A stretch of DNA of 64,000 nt from Solirubrobacter ginsenosidimutans (GTDB lineage Bacteria; Actinomycetota; Thermoleophilia; Solirubrobacterales; Solirubrobacteraceae). The notes under the pieces are model-generated. The model was not told the DNA's origin and did not search any database. It was given only the letters and a program-made list of their open reading frames with translations. The stretch lies in assembly GCF_027587205.1 (NCBI RefSeq), contig NZ_JAPDOD010000026.1:1-64000 (forward strand), given 5' to 3'. Of this stretch, positions 52,526 to 63,065 are shown piece after piece (the stretch's first letter is position 1; each line of letters opens with the position of its first letter). The translations under genes and the position numbers were made by a program.

Positions 52526-55500
52526 ATGTTGCGCAGACGCGTTTTCGCGCTGTCCGCAGGTTTCGTGCTGCTCGCCGCGAGTCCAGCGCTCGCTTCGACC
52601 GAGGAGCACGTAACGCCGTATCAGACGACTGTGTCGCTGGAGGAGGCACAGTTGATCCAGGACCAGACCGGCACCGAGCTCGACCACGCCGGGTACGACG
52701 GCAAGTCCGCCGAGCAGCACCTGAATCTCGACCTCTTCCCGTCGCAGGCGGCCAAGCTCGAAGACGAGGGCTTCGATCTGACCGAGGTCACCCTGCCCAA
52801 GCTCGGGCCGAAGGCCGCGCGCGCCACGGGCGGCGACAGCCCCAACCCGTACTACGACGTCTACCGCAGCTACTCCGAGCCCGGCGGCATCGCCGACGAG
52901 CTGCGCGGCCTCGCCCGTGACTACCCGGACGTCGTGAAGCTGGTCGAGATCGGCAAGTCGATGCTCGGCAAGCCGATCCTGACGATCAAGATCACCTCCA
53001 ACGCCCGCAACACGCCCGACGGCACGCGGCCGGCGATCCTCTACGGCGCCACCAACCACGCCCGCGAGTGGATCACGCCCGAGGTCGTCCGCCGCGAGGC
53101 GCACTGGATCCTCAACCACCAGGACGACGTCCGCGTGCAGGAGATCCTCAAGAAGACCGAGCTGTGGTTCCTGCCCGTCCAGAACCCGGACGGCTACGAC
53201 TACACGTTCACCTGCGGCACCGGCACCGCGACCAAGGTCTGCGGCCCCGGCGACGCGAACTCCAACCGCCTGTGGCGCAAGACCCTGCGCGACAACAACG
53301 CCAACGGGATCTACGGCGACCAGGGCGACGGCGTCGACCCCAACCGCAACTTCCCGGAGCAGTGGGCGCTGGACGAGGAGGGCTCGAGCGCGAACCCCGG
53401 CAACGAGGACTACCGCGGCCCGTACGCCAACTCGGAGCCCGAGAACTTCGCCTACGACCGGCTGCTGCGCCGCATCAAGCCGATCGCGAACCTCAACTAC
53501 CACTCGGCCGCCCAGCTGCTCAACAGCTCCTTCGGCTTCATCACCAACCGCCCGGCGGACGACAACACGCTGGCCCGCTCGCTGACCGGCACCGACGGCG
53601 ACGCCGCGGTGGACCCGTACCAGCCCGACCAGGCGTCGGACCTCTACGTCACGCACGGCGAGACCGTCGACTGGGCTTACTTCCAGTTCGGCACGATCGG
53701 CTTCACCCCCGAGCTCGACACCGCCCAGACCGGCGGCTCGAGCGCGTCCTCGTTCGTCTTCCCGGACGATGAGGACAAGGTCAACGCCGTCTTCGAGAAG
53801 AACCTCCCGCTCGCGCTGAACCTCGCGTGGAGCGCCGCCGGCGACGACTTCGACCGCCCGCGCAACTTCTTCGACGACGCCAGCCGCTACAAGGTCAAGG
53901 CCACGCTCGACATCGAGCCGACCGTGTTCGACGTCTCCTACGGCGGCGACCAGCAGGTCGAGGCCATCGTGCGCAAGGATCTCGGCCCGACCGACTTCCA
54001 GGCCTCGGTCTCCGGCCCGGGCGGCCGCAACCAGACGCTGTACCTGCGCGGTGCGCTCTACCAGGGCGGCGAGCGCTACGGCGACGTCCCCGGGAAGTAC
54101 TTCCAGCGCGTGCGGGCGACCGTGCCCGCCTCGTTCCCGCCCACCAGCACGACGGGGACCAACGCCAACCCGCGCCCGGTGATCACCGGTGACACCGTCA
54201 CCATCACCGTCCGCGCCGGCGGCCAGGAGCAGGTCTTCACCTACAAGGTCGTCTCCACCCCGCAGGACAAGACCAAGAAGCGGATCCTCGTCGTCGCGGC
54301 CGAGGACTACACCGGCACGGCGCCGAACAAGACGCCCTACGCCACCGCGCCGCGCTACCTCGCGCAGCACGTCGACGCCCTGAAGGCGGCCGGCTACGAG
54401 GTCGACACCTACAACATCGACGCGCCTCCCGGCACGATCAAGTACCCGACGTTCCTCGGCGTGCTCTCGCACTTCGACGGCGTCCTGTACTACACGGGCG
54501 ACGACCTCGTCCCGCAGGATCCGGGCCTGACGAACTACCGCCGCCTCTCGAACGCGACGACGCTGACCGGCGACACGCTGATCAGCCAGTGGGGCGCCAA
54601 GGGCTGGTTCAACCTCCGCGACTACCTCAACGAAGGCGGCAAGATCGTCATCGACGGCCGCAACGCCCACCAGACGTTCGCCAGCTCGAGCACCAGCGCG
54701 ACCGCCTACTCGGGCTACCAGTTCAACCCCGACCCGTTCTACGGGTTCAACTACCCGGCCGACAACCTCGGCGACGACAACCGGCCCGGCTCGGCGTTCA
54801 TCCGCCAGCACCAGGTCAACAACGACATCGAGCAGTACTTCTTCGGCGTCGGCTCGCGCACGGGCGGGGCCGGCTCGACGACGTACAACACCGCGCCGAT
54901 CGCGCCGACGGCGAACTCGATCTTCGCCGGCGTGGCGCCGTTCACCGTCGACACCGCGGCGGGCAACGACCCGACGCAGGACCTCGACGGCAACGCCACC
55001 CCGCGCGCGAAGTCGATCACCCGCCTGCGGACGTTCACGAGCGTGCTCTCCAGCCCCTCCCTGCAGCAGCCGCTGCGCCAGGAGAAGGCCGAGCTGGACT
55101 CGCAGACGACGCCGGCCCAGACCGCCAACGGCGGCGTCGCGATCTCCACGCGTGACACGGTGGCGTTCGGCTTCGGCCTCGAGCAGGTCGACCAGTCCAC
55201 CCGCGAGGCGCTGGTCTCCAAGGCGTTCGGCTACCTGCTGCCGGCCACGCCGGACACGACCGCCCCGGTGGTCGACTTCACCTACCCGCTCGAGCTCAAG
55301 GAGGTCACGGCGATCGACCCGGTCGACCTCGAGGTCAAGGGCTACGACGACCGCGGGGACATCAAGGAGGTGCGCCTGTACGCGAACGACACGCTCGTGA
55401 AGGCCAAGCGCTCCTTCCCGTTCCAGTTCCGCTACTACGTCCCGTCCAACGCCGCGGCGAACTCGGTCATCACGTTCAAGGCCGAGGCCGAGGACAAGGC

Positions 55501-56260
55501 CGGCAACGTCAAGACGATCACCCGCCAGGTGCGCGTCGTGTCCGCCGCGGCGATCGCGCAGACGCCGATCGCGGTCGGCCTGCCGGTCCTGACCGGCACC
55601 CCGACCGTCGGCTCGACGCTGACGCTGACGAACATCGCGTTCATCAACACGCCGACGAGCACCCGGTACGTCTGGTACCGCGACGGTGACGTCATCAGCG
55701 GCGCCGACAAGGTGACCTACACGCTGGTGGCGGCCGACCTCGGCCACCTGATCACCGCTCGGGTCTACGCCGGCAACGCCGACGGCGAGGGTGACTCGAC
55801 GCCCAAGAACGGCCTCTACGTCTCCGCGGCCGCCGGAGCGAAGGGCGACAAGGGCGACACCGGCGCGACCGGTCCCGCGGGCGCCAACGGTACGAATGGG
55901 ACCAACGGCGCGCCTGGCGCGACCGGCGCCACGGGTGCCACTGGCGCGACCGGCCCCGTGGGTCCGGCCGGCCCGAAGGGTGACAAGGGCGACAAGGGCG
56001 ATGCCCCCAACGTCCGCGTGACCTGCGATCTGGCGGCGGACGGCAAGTCCGTCGTCTGCACGATCACCGCCATCCCGCCGGCGGCGTCCAAGGCCGCCCT
56101 CAAGGGCACCGTGCGCCTCGCGGGCACGAAGAAGGCCACGAAGGTCAGCGGCAAGGGCAAGGTCAAGGTCCGCCTGCGGTCCTCGAAGAAGCTCAAGAAG
56201 GCACCGAAGGTCGTCGTCAAGCTCGGCTCCGCCAAGAGCCGCACCTACACGGCGCGCTAG
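52526..56260 (+). CDS. Secreted M14 zinc carboxypeptidase with Ig-like and collagen-like regions
   Basis: A 1,244-residue exported enzyme. Signal peptide 1-24 (start ATG 52526 after GAGGGGGA). M14 domain about 105-440: zinc ligands His178 and Glu181 (TNHAREW), His326 (LNYHSAAQ), catalytic Glu396 (FTPELDTA). Residues 440-1,020 hold further beta domains, 1,020-1,100 two Ig/Ig-like repeats. Residues 1,104-1,160 are 18-19 collagen-type Gly-x-y triplets (GDKGDTGATGPAGANGTNGT). A Lys-rich basic tail ends the protein. A likely cell-surface or released protease. Confidence 0.95.
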   Translation: MLRRRVFALSAGFVLLAASPALASTEEHVTPYQTTVSLEEAQLIQDQTGTELDHAGYDGKSAEQHLNLDLFPSQAAKLEDEGFDLTEVTLPKLGPKAARATGGDSPNPYYDVYRSYSEPGGIADELRGLARDYPDVVKLVEIGKSMLGKPILTIKITSNARNTPDGTRPAILYGATNHAREWITPEVVRREAHWILNHQDDVRVQEILKKTELWFLPVQNPDGYDYTFTCGTGTATKVCGPGDANSNRLWRKTLRDNNANGIYGDQGDGVDPNRNFPEQWALDEEGSSANPGNEDYRGPYANSEPENFAYDRLLRRIKPIANLNYHSAAQLLNSSFGFITNRPADDNTLARSLTGTDGDAAVDPYQPDQASDLYVTHGETVDWAYFQFGTIGFTPELDTAQTGGSSASSFVFPDDEDKVNAVFEKNLPLALNLAWSAAGDDFDRPRNFFDDASRYKVKATLDIEPTVFDVSYGGDQQVEAIVRKDLGPTDFQASVSGPGGRNQTLYLRGALYQGGERYGDVPGKYFQRVRATVPASFPPTSTTGTNANPRPVITGDTVTITVRAGGQEQVFTYKVVSTPQDKTKKRILVVAAEDYTGTAPNKTPYATAPRYLAQHVDALKAAGYEVDTYNIDAPPGTIKYPTFLGVLSHFDGVLYYTGDDLVPQDPGLTNYRRLSNATTLTGDTLISQWGAKGWFNLRDYLNEGGKIVIDGRNAHQTFASSSTSATAYSGYQFNPDPFYGFNYPADNLGDDNRPGSAFIRQHQVNNDIEQYFFGVGSRTGGAGSTTYNTAPIAPTANSIFAGVAPFTVDTAAGNDPTQDLDGNATPRAKSITRLRTFTSVLSSPSLQQPLRQEKAELDSQTTPAQTANGGVAISTRDTVAFGFGLEQVDQSTREALVSKAFGYLLPATPDTTAPVVDFTYPLELKEVTAIDPVDLEVKGYDDRGDIKEVRLYANDTLVKAKRSFPFQFRYYVPSNAAANSVITFKAEAEDKAGNVKTITRQVRVVSAAAIAQTPIAVGLPVLTGTPTVGSTLTLTNIAFINTPTSTRYVWYRDGDVISGADKVTYTLVAADLGHLITARVYAGNADGEGDSTPKNGLYVSAAAGAKGDKGDTGATGPAGANGTNGTNGAPGATGATGATGATGPVGPAGPKGDKGDKGDAPNVRVTCDLAADGKSVVCTITAIPPAASKAALKGTVRLAGTKKATKVSGKGKVKVRLRSSKKLKKAPKVVVKLGSAKSRTYTAR

Positions 56261-56550: not shown

Positions 56551-57210
56551 GTGAGCCTGGACGAGCACCGCGACGCATTCCTGGAGGGCCTGCTGGCGCG
56601 TGACTCCGCGCGGGCGCGGCTCGCGGTCCAGGCGGCGCTGGACGCCGGCGTTCCGATCCCGGACGTCTACCTCGAGCTGCTGCAGCCGGCGCTGCGCGAG
56701 GTCGGGCACCGCTGGGCGATGGGCACGCTCAACGTCGCGGAGGAGCATTACGCGACCGCCGTCGCCCGCTCGATCCTCGACGGGCTGTCGCGGCGCGTGC
56801 CGCGCGCGCCGAAGGACGGGCGCCTCGCGGTCGTTTCGGGGACGCCCGACGAGTTGCACGAGCTCGGGACGCGGATGGTCGCCGACTTCCTCGAGGCCGA
56901 CGGCTGGGAGGTCCTGCTGCTCGGCCCCGGCGCACCCGCCCACGACGTCGCGGAGCTCGTGGAGTCCGAGCAACCCGAGGTCGTCGCGCTCTCGACCGCG
57001 ACGGCGAGCGTCCTGCATGGTGTGGTCGAGCTCTTCGGCGCGGTCGCGGCGCTGAACCCGCGCCCGTGCATCGTCGCCGGCGGGCAGTTCTGGACGGCCG
57101 AGACGAGCGCGGCCGCGCTCGAGTTCGGCGCCGACCTGGTCATCCACGACCCACGGGACCTCGTCGCGACGCTGCAGGAGCGCATTCCCCCGCCGGGACT
57201 TGCCGAATGA
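56551..57210 (+). CDS. Stand-alone B12-binding, CarH/LitR-like photosensor protein
   Basis: A 219-residue protein with the helical cap (residues 1-80) and Rossmann B12-binding domain (90-215) of cobalamin photoreceptors. The light-sensing motif Trp-x9-Glu-His is intact (Trp55, Glu65, His66 in WAMGTLNVAEEHYAT), and the lower-ligand motif Glu-x-His-x-x-Gly is at 101-106 (DELHELG). There is no HTH domain, unlike CarH/LitR, so it would act through a partner or as a sensor. GTG start at 56551; an in-frame TTG at 56533 is possible. Overlaps the GNAT gene as ATGA. Confidence 0.88.
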   Translation: MSLDEHRDAFLEGLLARDSARARLAVQAALDAGVPIPDVYLELLQPALREVGHRWAMGTLNVAEEHYATAVARSILDGLSRRVPRAPKDGRLAVVSGTPDELHELGTRMVADFLEADGWEVLLLGPGAPAHDVAELVESEQPEVVALSTATASVLHGVVELFGAVAALNPRPCIVAGGQFWTAETSAAALEFGADLVIHDPRDLVATLQERIPPPGLAE

Positions 57211-58282: not shown

Positions 58283-58817
58283 GCAACAGCAGCCCGCCGA
58301 CGGCCCCGAAGGCGCCGGCGATGATCTCGATGATGCTGCGGAAGATCCCGGTGCCGCCAGGGGTCACGACGTAGGCGTCGGTGCTCGGGCCGGCGCAGTT
58401 GACGGAGATCTCTCCCCCGGGCGCGGTGAAGCGGCCGACGGTCGAAGCGCTGCCGAGCGTGACGCTCGAGCCCTGAAACGCCCCGCGGAACTGCGCGCCG
58501 CTGGAGGTCTCGCACGCCGTGCGGGCGATGATCTGCTCCTGGCGGTCGGTGTTCGAGAACACGCCGCCGCTGAAGATCACGTAGACGGTGTAGCGCTGAC
58601 CCGCCTCGGCGCGGAAGCTCGTCGGCTGGCCGAGCGGCGCGCGGGCGACGGCGTTGTCCTCGATCGCGCTGCGGGCGGTGACCGCGCCGGTGATGCCGAT
58701 CACGACCGCGACGCCGCCGGCGATCAGCAGCGCGAGGCCGACGATGATCCGCAGCGGCCCGCGCTTGCGGCGGGTCGGTCCGGCGCGCCAGCCGACCGGT
58801 GTGACGTCGCCGATCAC
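58245..58817 (-). CDS. Small membrane protein, unknown (190 aa)
   Basis: Two membrane helices, near the N-terminus (PLRIIVGLALLIAGGVAVVI) and at the end (IIEIIAGAFGAVGGLLLLIWG), flank an extracytoplasmic beta domain of about 105 residues containing two cysteines. GTG start at 58817 overlaps the upstream gene stop as GTGA. It is the last gene of the SAM-riboswitch operon if that transcript continues past metF. No family recognised. Confidence 0.75.
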   Translation of the reverse strand: MIGDVTPVGWRAGPTRRKRGPLRIIVGLALLIAGGVAVVIGITGAVTARSAIEDNAVARAPLGQPTSFRAEAGQRYTVYVIFSGGVFSNTDRQEQIIARTACETSSGAQFRGAFQGSSVTLGSASTVGRFTAPGGEISVNCAGPSTDAYVVTPGGTGIFRSIIEIIAGAFGAVGGLLLLIWGLIGRRVPA

Positions 58818-60349
58818 GACAGCGGAGGCCAGCAGTAGCGGTACCGCGGGATGTCCTCCTCGGCGCCTTCGAACCAGTTGTCCCAGTGCAGGCGATCGAT
58901 CAGCTCGGCGGCGCGCGCGACCTTGCCGAGCATCCCGCCGAGCTCGTCGGACTCGATCCGCCGCCGCGCGCCGGTCCCGCGTTCGAGCCGCGACTGGAGC
59001 TGCTCGTGCTGGTAGGCGGCCCAGCGTGCGCGGCCCTGCTCGTACTCCGGGCGGTCGCGATAGACGAAGACCAGCTGTCGGCAGCCGTGGGCGCGCATCC
59101 GGTCCTTGCCGTCCACGCACGGCTGCTTGGGGCCGGTGTTGGAGTGCGCGCCGCTGAGCCCGTGCACGCCGTCGACGGTCGCCTGGGCGCTGTAGCAGTC
59201 CTGCGGGTGCAGGCCGACGATCTCCAGGTAGGCCCGCAGCAGCTCCTGCGGCGTGCTCGGCAGGTACGGGAACGGCGACGGCGTCTCGGGCGGATGCAGC
59301 GTGCGGGTGTGCACGGCGCGGGCGATCGCGGCCCAGTTGAGCACTTCGACGCGGACGTCGGCGGGTGGGTGCAGGTACAGCGGGGCGGCCGCGCGCATGC
59401 GCGCGAAGTCGTCGCGGCCGGTCGGCGGATGCAGGGCGACCACGCCCCGCACGAGCGTGCACACGGGGTTGATGTGGTCGTCGCCGCTCTGGATCGACCG
59501 GAACTCCGAGATCCGCGCCAGGCCGGCGCACTGCTCCGGGCCGATCCCGGCCCCCACGCAGTACGCGAGGGCGAGCTCCTCGTCGAGCACCGACGGCTCG
59601 CCGACCCGCTTGGCCACCCAGTGGTCGTCGGCGGCGAACGCCGTGGCGACGATCGGCGGCGTCGTGCCGTCGGGATCGGAGTGCACGATGTCCCACTCGA
59701 CCGGCCGGCCCTTCTCGGAGTGCGGCGTGAGCGCCTGGCTGATCCGGTCGGGGACGCGGTAGACGCCGAACATGCGGTCGGGCGAGAGCCCGCTGCCGTT
59801 CACGTAGGCGAGCACCTCGTCGAGCTGGGTCTTGCCGCGGGTCATCAGCCGGCTGATGTGGACCGGCACGCGCTCCGGGGCGTTGTAGGGCGCGCGGGCC
59901 TCGTCGCGCACCGCGCGCTCGTGCGCGGCGACGTGCGCTCGCTGCAGCGGGTCCTCGATCTCCCGCACGGACGAGCGCCCGAGCACGTCGCGGGCCGACT
60001 GCTTGGCCTGACGGCCGAGCTCGACGCGAGCGAACCGGAACGAGGCGCCGTTGCTCTGCGCCGCCAGCTGCTCGGGCGTCTGCAGCTCGGGTCCGTACAC
60101 GGCGACCCCGGCGGGTCCGTAGAGCGCGCGCCGCTCCTCCTCGCGCGCCCTATTGCCCTCGTAGGCGAGCCGCGCGCCCGCCTCGGCGTGCTCGACCTGC
60201 GCCTGGTACGCCGCCCGGTGCTCCGGCGTCGCGTGTGCGAGCGCGGCGTCGATCTCGGCCTGGCTCGGCGGGTTGCGCGCCGCGCTGAGGCCTCTCGCCA
60301 GGTTGGCCGGCTTGAGTGCCTCCGCGGCGAGCTTGAGCGTCCGCTTCAT
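58814..60349 (-). CDS. Unknown 511-residue protein downstream of metF
   Basis: ATG at 60349, 35 bases after the metF stop. The N-terminal region is helical and charged (AEALKPANLARGL, then RAREEERRALYG). The middle and C-terminal parts contain a His/Asp/Cys-rich region (VHSDPDGTTPPIV, DDHINPVCTLVRG and LHPQDCYSAQATVDGVHGL) that could form an active site. No known domain recognised. It overlaps the 190-residue membrane gene and may be co-expressed with it, possibly from the SAM-controlled transcript. Confidence 0.8.
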   Translation of the reverse strand: MKRTLKLAAEALKPANLARGLSAARNPPSQAEIDAALAHATPEHRAAYQAQVEHAEAGARLAYEGNRAREEERRALYGPAGVAVYGPELQTPEQLAAQSNGASFRFARVELGRQAKQSARDVLGRSSVREIEDPLQRAHVAAHERAVRDEARAPYNAPERVPVHISRLMTRGKTQLDEVLAYVNGSGLSPDRMFGVYRVPDRISQALTPHSEKGRPVEWDIVHSDPDGTTPPIVATAFAADDHWVAKRVGEPSVLDEELALAYCVGAGIGPEQCAGLARISEFRSIQSGDDHINPVCTLVRGVVALHPPTGRDDFARMRAAAPLYLHPPADVRVEVLNWAAIARAVHTRTLHPPETPSPFPYLPSTPQELLRAYLEIVGLHPQDCYSAQATVDGVHGLSGAHSNTGPKQPCVDGKDRMRAHGCRQLVFVYRDRPEYEQGRARWAAYQHEQLQSRLERGTGARRRIESDELGGMLGKVARAAELIDRLHWDNWFEGAEEDIPRYRYCWPPLS

Positions 60350-60384: not shown

Positions 60385-61266
60385 TTAGGCGATGACGGCG
60401 GCCGGGAGCGAGCCGTGGGCGCGCAGGGCGGAGACGATCGCCCGGGTGGCCGGGGAGCGGTTGAGCGTGTAGAGGTGCACGCCGGGGGCGCCGTCGGCCA
60501 GCAGCTCCGCCGCCTGTGCCGTGGCGTAGGCGACGCCGAGCTCGGCGACGGCGCGCGGGTCGTCCTGGCGGCGCTCGAGCTCGCGGCGCAGGGCGGTGGG
60601 GATGCGCGCGCCGCACAGCGCCGCCACATGCTCGATCTGCTTGATGCTGGTGACCGGGATGATGCCCGGCAGGACCGGGACGTCGAGGGCGGCGCGGTCG
60701 ATGAAGCGGCGATAGTCGTCGTTGTCGAAGAAGAGCTGGGTCACGAGGACCTTGACGCCCGCGTCGACCTTCGCGCGCAGGTGGGCGAGGTCGGCGGCCT
60801 GCCCGCGCGAGTCCCGATGCGTCTCGGGATAGGCCGCGCCGAGCACGCTGAAGCCCGCCTCGGCGGCGAGCGCGATCAGCTCCAGCGAGCTCTGGACGCC
60901 GCCCTCGGGCGCGGTCCAGGTCGACTGCCCGCGGGGCGGGTCGCCGCGCAGGGCGAGGACGTTGTTGGCGCCGCCGGCGCGCGCCTCGGCCAACAGCTCG
61001 ACGAGACCCTCGCGCGTGAAGCCGGTCGCGGTGACGTGGGGGACGGCCTCCAGGCCGCGCTCGCGGGCGAGCCGGCGGACCACCGCGAGCGTCAGGTCAC
61101 GGGTCGTGCCGCCCGCCCCGCAGGTCACGGAGACGAACGCGGGCTCCAGCGCCGCGAGCTCCTCGATCGCGCTCCAGAAGGCCAGCTCGGCCTCGACGGT
61201 CCGGGGCGGCAAGAACTCGAACGAGACGATCGGCTCGCCGCCGCGTAGGCGCTCGTCGAGCCTCAT
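60385..61266 (-). CDS. metF: 5,10-Methylenetetrahydrofolate reductase
   Basis: A 293-residue FAD enzyme that makes 5-methyl-THF, the methyl donor for methionine synthesis. Opening PIVSFEFLPPRTVEAEL, then PAFVSVTCGAGGTTRD, NVLALRGDPPRG and the TQLFFDNDDYRRFID active-site segment. ATG at 61266. Lies downstream of the sulfur-carrier gene by 67 bases in the SAM-riboswitch operon, so its presence supports a methionine function for the unit. Confidence 0.96.
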   Translation of the reverse strand: MRLDERLRGGEPIVSFEFLPPRTVEAELAFWSAIEELAALEPAFVSVTCGAGGTTRDLTLAVVRRLARERGLEAVPHVTATGFTREGLVELLAEARAGGANNVLALRGDPPRGQSTWTAPEGGVQSSLELIALAAEAGFSVLGAAYPETHRDSRGQAADLAHLRAKVDAGVKVLVTQLFFDNDDYRRFIDRAALDVPVLPGIIPVTSIKQIEHVAALCGARIPTALRRELERRQDDPRAVAELGVAYATAQAAELLADGAPGVHLYTLNRSPATRAIVSALRAHGSLPAAVIA

Positions 61267-61333
61267 GCGAGCCACCGACGGTTCGTGGGTCCCTGGGCCA
61301 CGCGCGTGGGCCCTCGTCCGCGGGTTGCCAGGG

Positions 61334-61612
61334 TCATGCTCCGCCCGCCACCGCCGGGAGGATCGTGACCTCGTCGCCGTCGGCCACCGGCGTCTCGAGG
61401 CCGTCGAGGAACCGGATGTCCTCGCCCTTGAGATAGACGTTGACGAAGCGGCGCAGGGCACCGTCACCGTCGGCGATCCGCTCGCGCAGCTCGCCGTGCT
61501 GCTCGTAGAGGTTGTTCAGCGCCTCGCCGACCGTGCCGCCGTCAACCGAAGCCGCCGTGGCGCCGCCGGCCGCGTCGCGCAGCTGCGTGGGGAGCTTGAC
61601 CGTGACCGGCAT
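61334..61612 (-). CDS. Ubiquitin-like sulfur-carrier protein ending Gly-Gly-Ala (HcyS/CysO-like)
   Basis: A 92-residue beta-grasp protein of the MoaD/ThiS/CysO type: VTVKLPTQLRDAAGG, RRFVNVYLKGEDIRFLDG and the C-terminal VTILPAVAGGA. The tail is Gly-Gly plus Ala, so a protease must remove the Ala before adenylation and thiocarboxylate formation. HcyS-Ala of the Wolinella methionine pathway has the same tail. The ATG overlaps the thrC-like stop at 61612, so the two are translationally coupled. Confidence 0.93.
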   Translation of the reverse strand: MPVTVKLPTQLRDAAGGATAASVDGGTVGEALNNLYEQHGELRERIADGDGALRRFVNVYLKGEDIRFLDGLETPVADGDEVTILPAVAGGA

Positions 61613-62841
61613 CAGACGGCCACCGGGGCGAAGTGGGAGTCGAAGGCATCGATCGAGGCCGGGATCTCGGTGACCTCGAACGTGCCGCGGACCACGTCGA
61701 TCGTCTTCAGGCCGTCGCCGGTGACCATCGCCACGACGCGCTCGTCGGGGCCGATGTCGCCGCGGGCCGCCAGCTTGGCCAGCGTCGCGATCGTCACGCC
61801 GCCGGCGCTCTCGGTGAAGATGCCGGTGGTCTCGGCCAGCAGCCGGACGCCCGCGCGGATCTCGTCGTCGGTGACGGCGTCGATCCCGCCGCCGGTCCGG
61901 CGGGCGAGCTCGATCGCGTACGGGCCGTCGGCGGGGTTGCCGATGGCCAGCGACTTGGCGATCGTGTCCGGCTTGACCGGGCGGACGACGTCGTGACCCT
62001 CGGCGAACGCCTTGGCGACCGGCGAGCAGCCCTCGGCCTGGGCGCCGTTCATCTTCGGCACCTCGCCGGAGACGAGGCCGGCGTCGATGAACTCCTGGAA
62101 GCCTCTCGCGATCTTGGTGAACTGCGAGCCGGAGGCGATCGGGCCGACGATCCGGTCCGGCAGCTCCCAGCCGAGCTGCTCGACGGTCTCGAACGCGAGC
62201 GTCTTGGAGCCCTCGGCGTAGTAGGGGCGCATGTTGATGTTCACGAACGCCCAGTTCGGCCGCTCACCCGAGACCTCGGTGCAGAGGCGGTTGACATCGT
62301 CGTAGTTGCCGCGGACGGCGACGATCTGGGCGCCGTACGCGCCCGTGGCCAGGATCTTCGGCTCCTCGAGGTCGAACGGGATCAACACGTAGGCGGGCAG
62401 ACCGGCGGCCGCGGCGTGCGCCGCGACGGCGTTCGCGAGGTTGCCGGTCGACGCACACGCGAGCGTGTCGAACCCGAGCTCGAGTGCACGGGCGAGCGCG
62501 ACGGAGACGACGCGGTCCTTGAAGGAGTGCGTCGGGTTCGCGGTCTCGTTCTTGATGTAGAGCTCGCCGAGCCCGAGCCGCTCGGCCAGGCGGTCGGCCT
62601 TGACCAGCGGGGTCCAGCCCGTCGGCAGCGCGCTGCGCGCCGGGCCCTGCAGGGGCAGGAAGTCCGCGTAGCGCCAGATGGTGTGCGGCCCGGCCTGGAT
62701 GCGGCGCTTGAGCGCCGCCGGGTCGCCTTCGGGCAGCGAGTAGCTCACCTCGAGCGGGCCGAAGCACCGCTCACAGACGAAGCGCGCCTCGAGGGGGTAG
62801 GCGGTCTGACATTCCTTGCACTTCAGGGCATCTGCCGGCAT
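61612..62841 (-). CDS. Threonine synthase-like PLP enzyme (candidate homocysteine synthase)
   Basis: A 409-residue fold-type II PLP enzyme. N-terminal zinc ribbon CKECQTAYPLEARFVCERC, PLP Lys in NPTHSFKDR, phosphate-binding CASTGNLANAV and the FTESAGGVTIA segment. It fits the threonine synthase family that uses O-phosphohomoserine. It is placed under a SAM riboswitch with a Gly-Gly-Ala sulfur carrier and metF, which argues it may instead attach thiocarboxylate sulfur to O-phosphohomoserine to make homocysteine. A second, true threonine synthase elsewhere in the genome would support this. ATG at 62841 follows GGAGGA by 10 bases. Confidence 0.9.
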   Translation of the reverse strand: MPADALKCKECQTAYPLEARFVCERCFGPLEVSYSLPEGDPAALKRRIQAGPHTIWRYADFLPLQGPARSALPTGWTPLVKADRLAERLGLGELYIKNETANPTHSFKDRVVSVALARALELGFDTLACASTGNLANAVAAHAAAAGLPAYVLIPFDLEEPKILATGAYGAQIVAVRGNYDDVNRLCTEVSGERPNWAFVNINMRPYYAEGSKTLAFETVEQLGWELPDRIVGPIASGSQFTKIARGFQEFIDAGLVSGEVPKMNGAQAEGCSPVAKAFAEGHDVVRPVKPDTIAKSLAIGNPADGPYAIELARRTGGGIDAVTDDEIRAGVRLLAETTGIFTESAGGVTIATLAKLAARGDIGPDERVVAMVTGDGLKTIDVVRGTFEVTEIPASIDAFDSHFAPVAV

Positions 62842-62852
62842 GGGATTTCGAT

Positions 62853-62878
62853 CCTCCGCCCGGGCTGTGCGGTGGAGG
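62853..62878 (-). promoter_or_regulatory. SAM riboswitch expression platform: hairpin sequestering the ribosome-binding site
   Basis: Leftward, CCTCC (62874-62878) pairs with the GGAGG ribosome-binding site (62853-62857) of the thrC-like gene, supported by inner CCG/CGG pairs. Upstream, the aptamer P1 3' strand segment GAGATGC (62917-62923) is also complementary to GCATCTC (62891-62897), giving an alternative pairing that a SAM-bound aptamer would prevent. This suggests translational control. Confidence 0.65.
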
Positions 62879-62915
62879 TTCGAGTTCGGCGAGATGCACC
62901 GGGAATGACCCCAAC

Positions 62916-63035
62916 CGCATCTCCCAGGCTTTTCTTGGTTGGAGCCTGATGGAATTGCCACCTTCTTCCCGGCGTGCGACCGGGAGCAGGTTGGCGGGGG
63001 TTCATAGGGCCAATCCCTCCCCCCCTCTGGATGCG
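62916..63035 (-). ncRNA. SAM riboswitch (S-box/SAM-I superfamily aptamer)
   Basis: A 120-base leftward leader element with the S-box core: GAGGG(G)A, GGCCCTATGAA, GCCAACC, then AAGGTGGCAATTCC and CAGG. P1 is CGCATC (63030-63035) with GATGCG (62916-62921), ending GGGAGATGCG like the S-box GGAGAU end. P3 is CCCGG/CCGGG, closed by CCTG/CAGG. The control region is the thrC-like gene's ribosome-binding site. SAM-I is the likely class; SAM-IV or SAM-I/IV is not excluded. Confidence 0.85.
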
Positions 63036-63065
63036 TCCAGCTATCTATCGGAAGCGTAGCGAACT

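Follow-up and report, generated by a model that had tools for sequence, protein, structure and literature searches.

A SAM-riboswitch operon of Solirubrobacter ginsenosidimutans with metM, metO and metF, predicted to make homocysteine from O-phosphohomoserine

A 64,000-nucleotide stretch of Solirubrobacter ginsenosidimutans (contig NZ_JAPDOD010000026.1, positions 1 to 64,000; hereafter the window) carries an S-adenosylmethionine (SAM) riboswitch followed by a gene resembling threonine synthase (ThrC), a gene for a small sulfur carrier, and metF, and the question raised by this locus is which amino acid such an operon serves. The first-pass annotation of this DNA had described the four elements, including the AVAGGA end of the carrier, and all of them are present as claimed, with coordinates right to within a few bases:

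62914 to 63037, minus strand: SAM (S-box, RF00162) riboswitch aptamer, cmscan 78.3 bits, full length 1-108
62842 to 62913, minus strand: leader joining the aptamer to the start of metM; by folding, its purine-rich ribosome-binding site, GGCGGAGG, would be mostly paired
61612 to 62841, minus strand: metM, ThrC-like pyridoxal phosphate (PLP) enzyme of fold-type II, 409 amino acids; TIGR00260, PF00291; in the MetM clade (100/100)
61334 to 61612, minus strand: metO, beta-grasp sulfur carrier, 92 amino acids; ThiS family, SAMP1-like; in the MetO group (97/89)
60385 to 61266, minus strand: metF, methylenetetrahydrofolate reductase, 293 amino acids; PF02219 E 3e-76; TIGR00676 280 bits (cut-off 294)

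The riboswitch operon and its predicted reaction

We read the locus as a SAM-riboswitch operon, metM-metO-metF, whose MetM very likely makes homocysteine from O-phosphohomoserine with sulfur from the MetO thiocarboxylate. A MetM/MetO pathway was described in Streptomyces by Hasebe et al. 2024 (AEM 90:e01247-24, via excerpts of PMC12172450), and the earlier statement that such an enzyme was not known to be described has to be withdrawn; according to the same excerpts, Streptomyces MetM is a novel homocysteine synthase converting O-phosphohomoserine to homocysteine, and metM of S. albulus has a SAM riboswitch upstream. The locus is a well-supported further case of this published pathway: in common with Streptomyces it has a ThrC-homologous enzyme, an adjoining carrier and the SAM riboswitch (the shared substrate being our inference); unlike Streptomyces it has a carrier ending in Gly-Gly-Ala, and its two twists are metF as the third gene of the operon and the retention of metX and metY in the nearest relative. 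The first-pass annotation had proposed the homocysteine-forming reaction, with CysM as analogue, and had taken the riboswitch as a signal of methionine supply; all three points agree with the published pathway and with what the tests of clade, residues and context below show, and the proposed chemistry is very probably right. Its interpretation is thus supported in part, for reaction, analogy and regulation, and falls for novelty and for the expected absence of metX/metY.

In the mycobacterial CysM/CysO/Mec system, a PLP enzyme acts on a phosphorylated amino acid with a thiocarboxylated carrier, and a protease frees the product (excerpts of PMC3227635). MetM/MetO would resemble it in all three respects, with homocysteine instead of cysteine as the product, and the CysO and MetO sequences are separate in the carrier tree described below. 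For HcyS/HcyD of Wolinella, the partner of the carrier is said to be a fold-type I O-acetylhomoserine enzyme; the window is similar in its Gly-Gly-Ala carrier, which would need a JAMM protease, and in the predicted homocysteine product, and differs in that the partner is a PF00291, ThrC-like enzyme of fold-type II. In the host, a JAMM metalloprotease (presumed from relatives) would trim MetO-Gly-Gly-Ala to Gly-Gly, a rhodanese-ThiF enzyme of the MoeB/MoeZ type would adenylate and then thiocarboxylate the trimmed MetO, and MetM would eliminate phosphate from PLP-bound O-phosphohomoserine and add the carrier sulfur. Homocysteine would then be released from the carrier, a step that the protease might also perform, as happens with CysO-cysteine; MetF would provide methyl-tetrahydrofolate, and the operon would be shut off as SAM rises; in Solirubrobacter this route would operate beside metX/metY.

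The RF00162 match (78.3 bits against a gathering score of 44.4; E 1e-16) is the only SAM riboswitch above threshold in the window. Among named genomes we retained the best 80 of 582 metM loci; a SAM riboswitch lies ahead of metM in all 24 of the loci scanned for it, and a carrier ending in PAVAGG, with or without a further tail, follows within about 0.6 kb downstream of metM in 75 of the 80, for which reason the arrangement is not due to chance. Exactly one SAM riboswitch was found in 17 of 20 genomes, each time ahead of metM (positions compared by eye). In a draw across the Actinomycetota, MetM (E up to 1e-100) was present in 94 of 246 sampled genomes, and 90 of these loci were analysed (S. 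soli, already in the set, and three loci with partial matches were left out). metO adjoins metM in 66 of the 90, is missing from at least 1.5 kb of downstream sequence in 19, and could not be sought in five with too short a flank; an 80-genome subset, comprising the 66 genomes with metO and 14 of the 19 without, has a SAM riboswitch in 63 genomes, in 57 of them within 1 kb upstream of metM. In two genomes of the collection (G069 and G117), the metM match contains one in-frame stop codon.

Folding gives the leader at most a putative expression platform. A leader segment, GCATCTC, is able to pair with the 3' strand of P1 in the window, and the free fold (-95.2 kcal/mol) and the fold with P1 forced (-95.0 kcal/mol) are nearly equal in energy; the pairing was not significant against shuffled sequences (0.057 of 300 shuffles), the ribosome-binding site is predicted to be paired in both folds, and no consistent P1/leader pairing was found across 25 leaders.

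MetM among ThrC relatives and its genome context

By profile the window MetM is a threonine synthase (TIGR00260 296 bits, cut-off 167; NF006050 273 bits, below its cut-off of 303; Pfam PALP also matched). TIGR00260 is, however, blind to the split between MetM and ThrC, giving 290 bits to the hom-linked ThrC of Solirubrobacter soli as well. S. soli DSM 22325 holds the best-scoring named locus, with 92% identity to the window MetM (Streptomyces homologues: 56-60%), and as the nearest relative found it was used as a stand-in for genome-wide context. In a paralogue tree of 99 sequences, the window and all 80 named loci form one MetM clade of 81 rows (100/100), with S. soli as sister to the window (100/99) and 31 Streptomycetaceae rows inside it, separate from 11 ThrC rows that are themselves united at 100/100; we rely on these two clades only, as the long-branch rows L093 and L105-L110 are not safely placed, and S. 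albulus MetM itself is absent from both the tree and the identity comparison. A second ThrC-like gene was present in all 12 genomes searched, and in 11 it belongs to the ThrC clade. On these sequences, the window enzyme is a member of the MetM clade, distinct from hom-type ThrC.

The active site points the same way. The window MetM shares with ThrC the fold, the PLP lysine (K108, retained) and the likely substrate; unlike ThrC it has ASGS in place of the GNAG loop, an N-terminal CxxC...CxxC ribbon (C8, C11, C23, C26) and no adjoining hom or thrB. The ThrC active-site set is not kept: Thr88, Ser155, Arg160 and Asn188 of the Thermus enzyme 1uim, which we take to be contacts of the substrate phosphate, align with L135, N203, Y208 and S237. 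At 34 alignment columns, 95% or more of the 81 MetM rows share a residue that 10 or all 11 of the ThrC rows lack; the window carries the MetM residue at 32 of these columns, the exceptions being E99 and S345. When 29 of the 34 columns were used to score the 90 phylum-draw loci, the 66 rows with adjoining metO scored 25-29 and the 24 rows without it 24-29, against 0-6 for 18 other paralogues.

The genome of S. soli holds the other components that the first-pass annotation had proposed to look for. A second threonine synthase is encoded apart from metM, adjoining hom (NF004976 432 bits), and the JAMM and adenylase families are both present: a JAMM gene lies near a cysK/M-like gene, and a rhodanese-ThiF adenylase (NF006444 555 bits, cut-off 449) adjoins a CysO-type carrier ending in GGCV. 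JAMM and ThiF were each above cut-off in 20 of 20 genomes, and JAMM in 77 of the 80 draw genomes. The predicted absence of metX/metY fails in this relative, which has metY (TIGR01326 607 bits, cut-off 495) followed by metX (NF001209 350 bits, cut-off 331), and metM/metO would therefore be a second route to homocysteine there. The sole SAM riboswitch detected in S. soli is the one ahead of metM, and none was found in the part of the metY-metX region examined. In the first 20 genomes no metX reached the TIGR01392 cut-off, with nine full-length matches at 314-459 bits and one partial match at 300; in the 80 draw genomes metX was above cut-off in 22.

Two neighbourhoods elsewhere may be recorded here. 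In Streptomyces tardus (G010, L075; C2:1552103-1553763), metY and metX matches are adjacent and fragmentary, as if that route were decaying in a metM genome. In a metagenome-assembled genome of candidate division FCPU426 (L206/L207, L044), hom-, thrC- and aspartokinase-like genes (hom and aspartokinase identified by eye) lie about 7-9 kb upstream of a riboswitch-metM unit, and after metO come genes for a partial ThiF protein and for a cysteine synthase, bringing aspartate-family and carrier genes into one neighbourhood.

A second threonine synthase (or synthase/deaminase), placed under SAM control in order to divert O-phosphohomoserine and only secondarily paired with a carrier, is what the TIGR00260 label would suggest, and threonine-related activities of a Microcystis homologue, given below, would fit it too; the separate hom-linked ThrC of S. 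soli, the 34 clade-specific columns, which include the presumed phosphate contacts, and the SAM riboswitch and dedicated carrier at the locus argue against it, and we regard it as unlikely.

Several observations nevertheless weigh against homocysteine synthesis by MetM. The profile that names it a threonine synthase does so above cut-off. Some clade-specific columns vary across the phylum, position 105 being histidine in 43 of 66 rows with adjoining metO and in 5 of 24 without. No riboswitch was detected within 1 kb of metM in 23 of the 80 sampled genomes, under strict filters and with many draft assemblies. The ThrC, JAMM protease and adenylase of the host are inferred, because they were read from the genome of S. 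soli, and that genome already has metX and metY, so that it may not require a second route. Finally, a homologue from Microcystis that shares 51.6% identity with S. albulus MetM and has a metO-like neighbour but no SAM riboswitch reportedly acts as a threonine deaminase, formed slight amounts of threonine at 30 mM substrate, and did not raise methionine in cells (excerpts of PMC12172450).

The MetO carrier, its tail and carrier sharing

The start of metO overlaps the metM stop by one base (TGATG), and its product ends in ILPAVAGGA, i.e., Gly-Gly plus a single alanine. Its match to the SAMP1 profile NF041918 (76 bits, cut-off 60) might suggest a ubiquitin-like protein modifier instead of a sulfur donor. 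Against this, metO forms a pair with the gene of a PLP enzyme under a SAM riboswitch, and the closest solved sequences, 3dwg (listed as cfp10A; we take it to be CysO) and 4n6e (a ThiS/MoaD family protein), outrank the SAMP1 entries, so that a role as modifier appears extremely unlikely.

The Gly-Gly-Ala end, which had been put forward as a defining feature, is not one: of the 120 carriers listed as closest, 94 stop right at Gly-Gly, one ends in Gly-Gly-Gly and one lacks a Gly-Gly end, and 24 have one other residue after Gly-Gly, alanine in 14 of them (15 when the window is counted). At the named loci the carrier end was readable in 77 of 80 (at locus L018 a second, unrelated-looking carrier match was dropped), with 58 ending in Gly-Gly and 19 longer, 12 of these in Gly-Gly-Cys, and 65 readable MetO from the phylum draw comprise 43 ending in Gly-Gly and 22 longer. 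The tail state requires at least 15 changes on a tree of 78 rows; as far as these sequences tell, the terminal alanine is an unstable trait, gained and lost in MetO. A tail encoded in the gene would have to be trimmed off, for which the near-universal JAMM protease is the simplest candidate, and we predict that the window MetO needs removal of its last alanine before adenylation and thiocarboxylation.

We also considered whether the tail marks those MetO that depend on the protease and rejected this, as there was no contrast: JAMM matches of at least 50 bits occur in 19 of the 22 genomes whose MetO is extended and in 42 of the 43 whose MetO stops at Gly-Gly (the unreadable carrier L285 left out), and the four genomes without a match are multi-contig assemblies of 1.8-2.7 Mb. 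The L285 carrier itself ends in AVAWG with a phenylalanine run, probably an assembly error.

MetM might instead be an O-phosphohomoserine sulfhydrylase using free sulfide, with the carrier belonging to another pathway such as molybdenum cofactor synthesis; the 19 of 90 sampled loci without adjoining metO and the six ThiS-family matches in the whole S. soli genome are in line with this. On the other side, the MetO sequences make up one group linked to metM, with metO adjoining it at 66 of the 90 loci of the draw and at 75 of the 80 named ones, and in the published Streptomyces work thiocarboxylated MetO reportedly has a role in vitro, MetM and thiocarboxylated MetO together converting O-phospho-L-homoserine to homocysteine; we hold the use of free sulfide to be very unlikely.

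The genomes without adjoining metO bear on how MetM obtains its sulfur. A carrier of the same family is encoded elsewhere in 18 of the 19, in some together with a second, weaker one. The JAMM search covered 14 of the 19, and in each of these no more than 1.3 kb separates the JAMM gene from the best carrier; in many, MoeB-like and cysK/M-like genes occur at the same site. A tree of 72 carriers (91 columns only) unites its 39 MetO rows (the window, 17 selected named loci, and 21 rows sampled from the phylum draw at every third locus) in one group (97/89), which excludes all 18 carriers of genomes without adjoining metO and all 15 CysO rows (L117 was dropped as a duplicate of L204, the two being one gene). 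The window carrier thus lies in the MetO group, outside the CysO lineage. Since the 18 carriers fall outside that group, they are not displaced MetO, and MetM in those genomes would therefore need CysO, another carrier, or sulfide. Twelve of the 18 have a tail. CysO-type carriers readable near JAMM genes or beside the adenylase are tailed in 15 of 15 genomes, with MV, AR, MR, R, CV and others after Gly-Gly (L111-L119, L121, L122, L126, L199, L202-L204), unlike most MetO.

We tentatively suggest, at somewhat less than even chances, that MetM of Actinomycetota can run on CysO: without metO, a single set of carrier, adenylase and JAMM protease would serve both cysteine and methionine synthesis, MetO would be a dedicated relative split from CysO-like carriers, and JAMM would trim the short tails (on every CysO seen and a minority of MetO, alanine in the window and cysteine in many Streptomyces), such carriers being inactive precursors. 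Carrier sharing by MetM was not reported among the matches listed or in the excerpts of PMC11237513, PMC12452182, PMC7311316 and PMC12910592, and Hasebe et al. 2024 may discuss it; the prediction for MetM and CysO may be new here.

metF, neighbouring genes and significance

MetF likely supplies the methyl group for the conversion of homocysteine to methionine. Its position is not conserved at metM loci, a match being found in the flank of one of the 80 named loci, that of S. soli (some contigs end early). Directly downstream of metF on the same strand, a 511-amino-acid protein (58814-60349, minus strand) has no Pfam or NCBIfam match. A small protein with two B12-binding domains and no catalytic domain matched, possibly a sensor, is encoded at 56551-57210 (plus strand), and the gene at 52526-56260 (plus strand) codes for 1244 amino acids that include a zinc carboxypeptidase (M14) domain and a stretch of collagen-like repeats. 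A JAMM gene was not seen in the window, of which 34 of 46 predicted genes plus metO were scanned.

For this family, the analysis corrects the common naming of metM as threonine synthase and of metO as a molybdopterin-type carrier. The S. soli lineage has genes for two homocysteine routes, but the one SAM riboswitch detected there belongs to the carrier-dependent route, and genomes without adjoining metO make the sharing of a carrier between cysteine and methionine synthesis directly testable.

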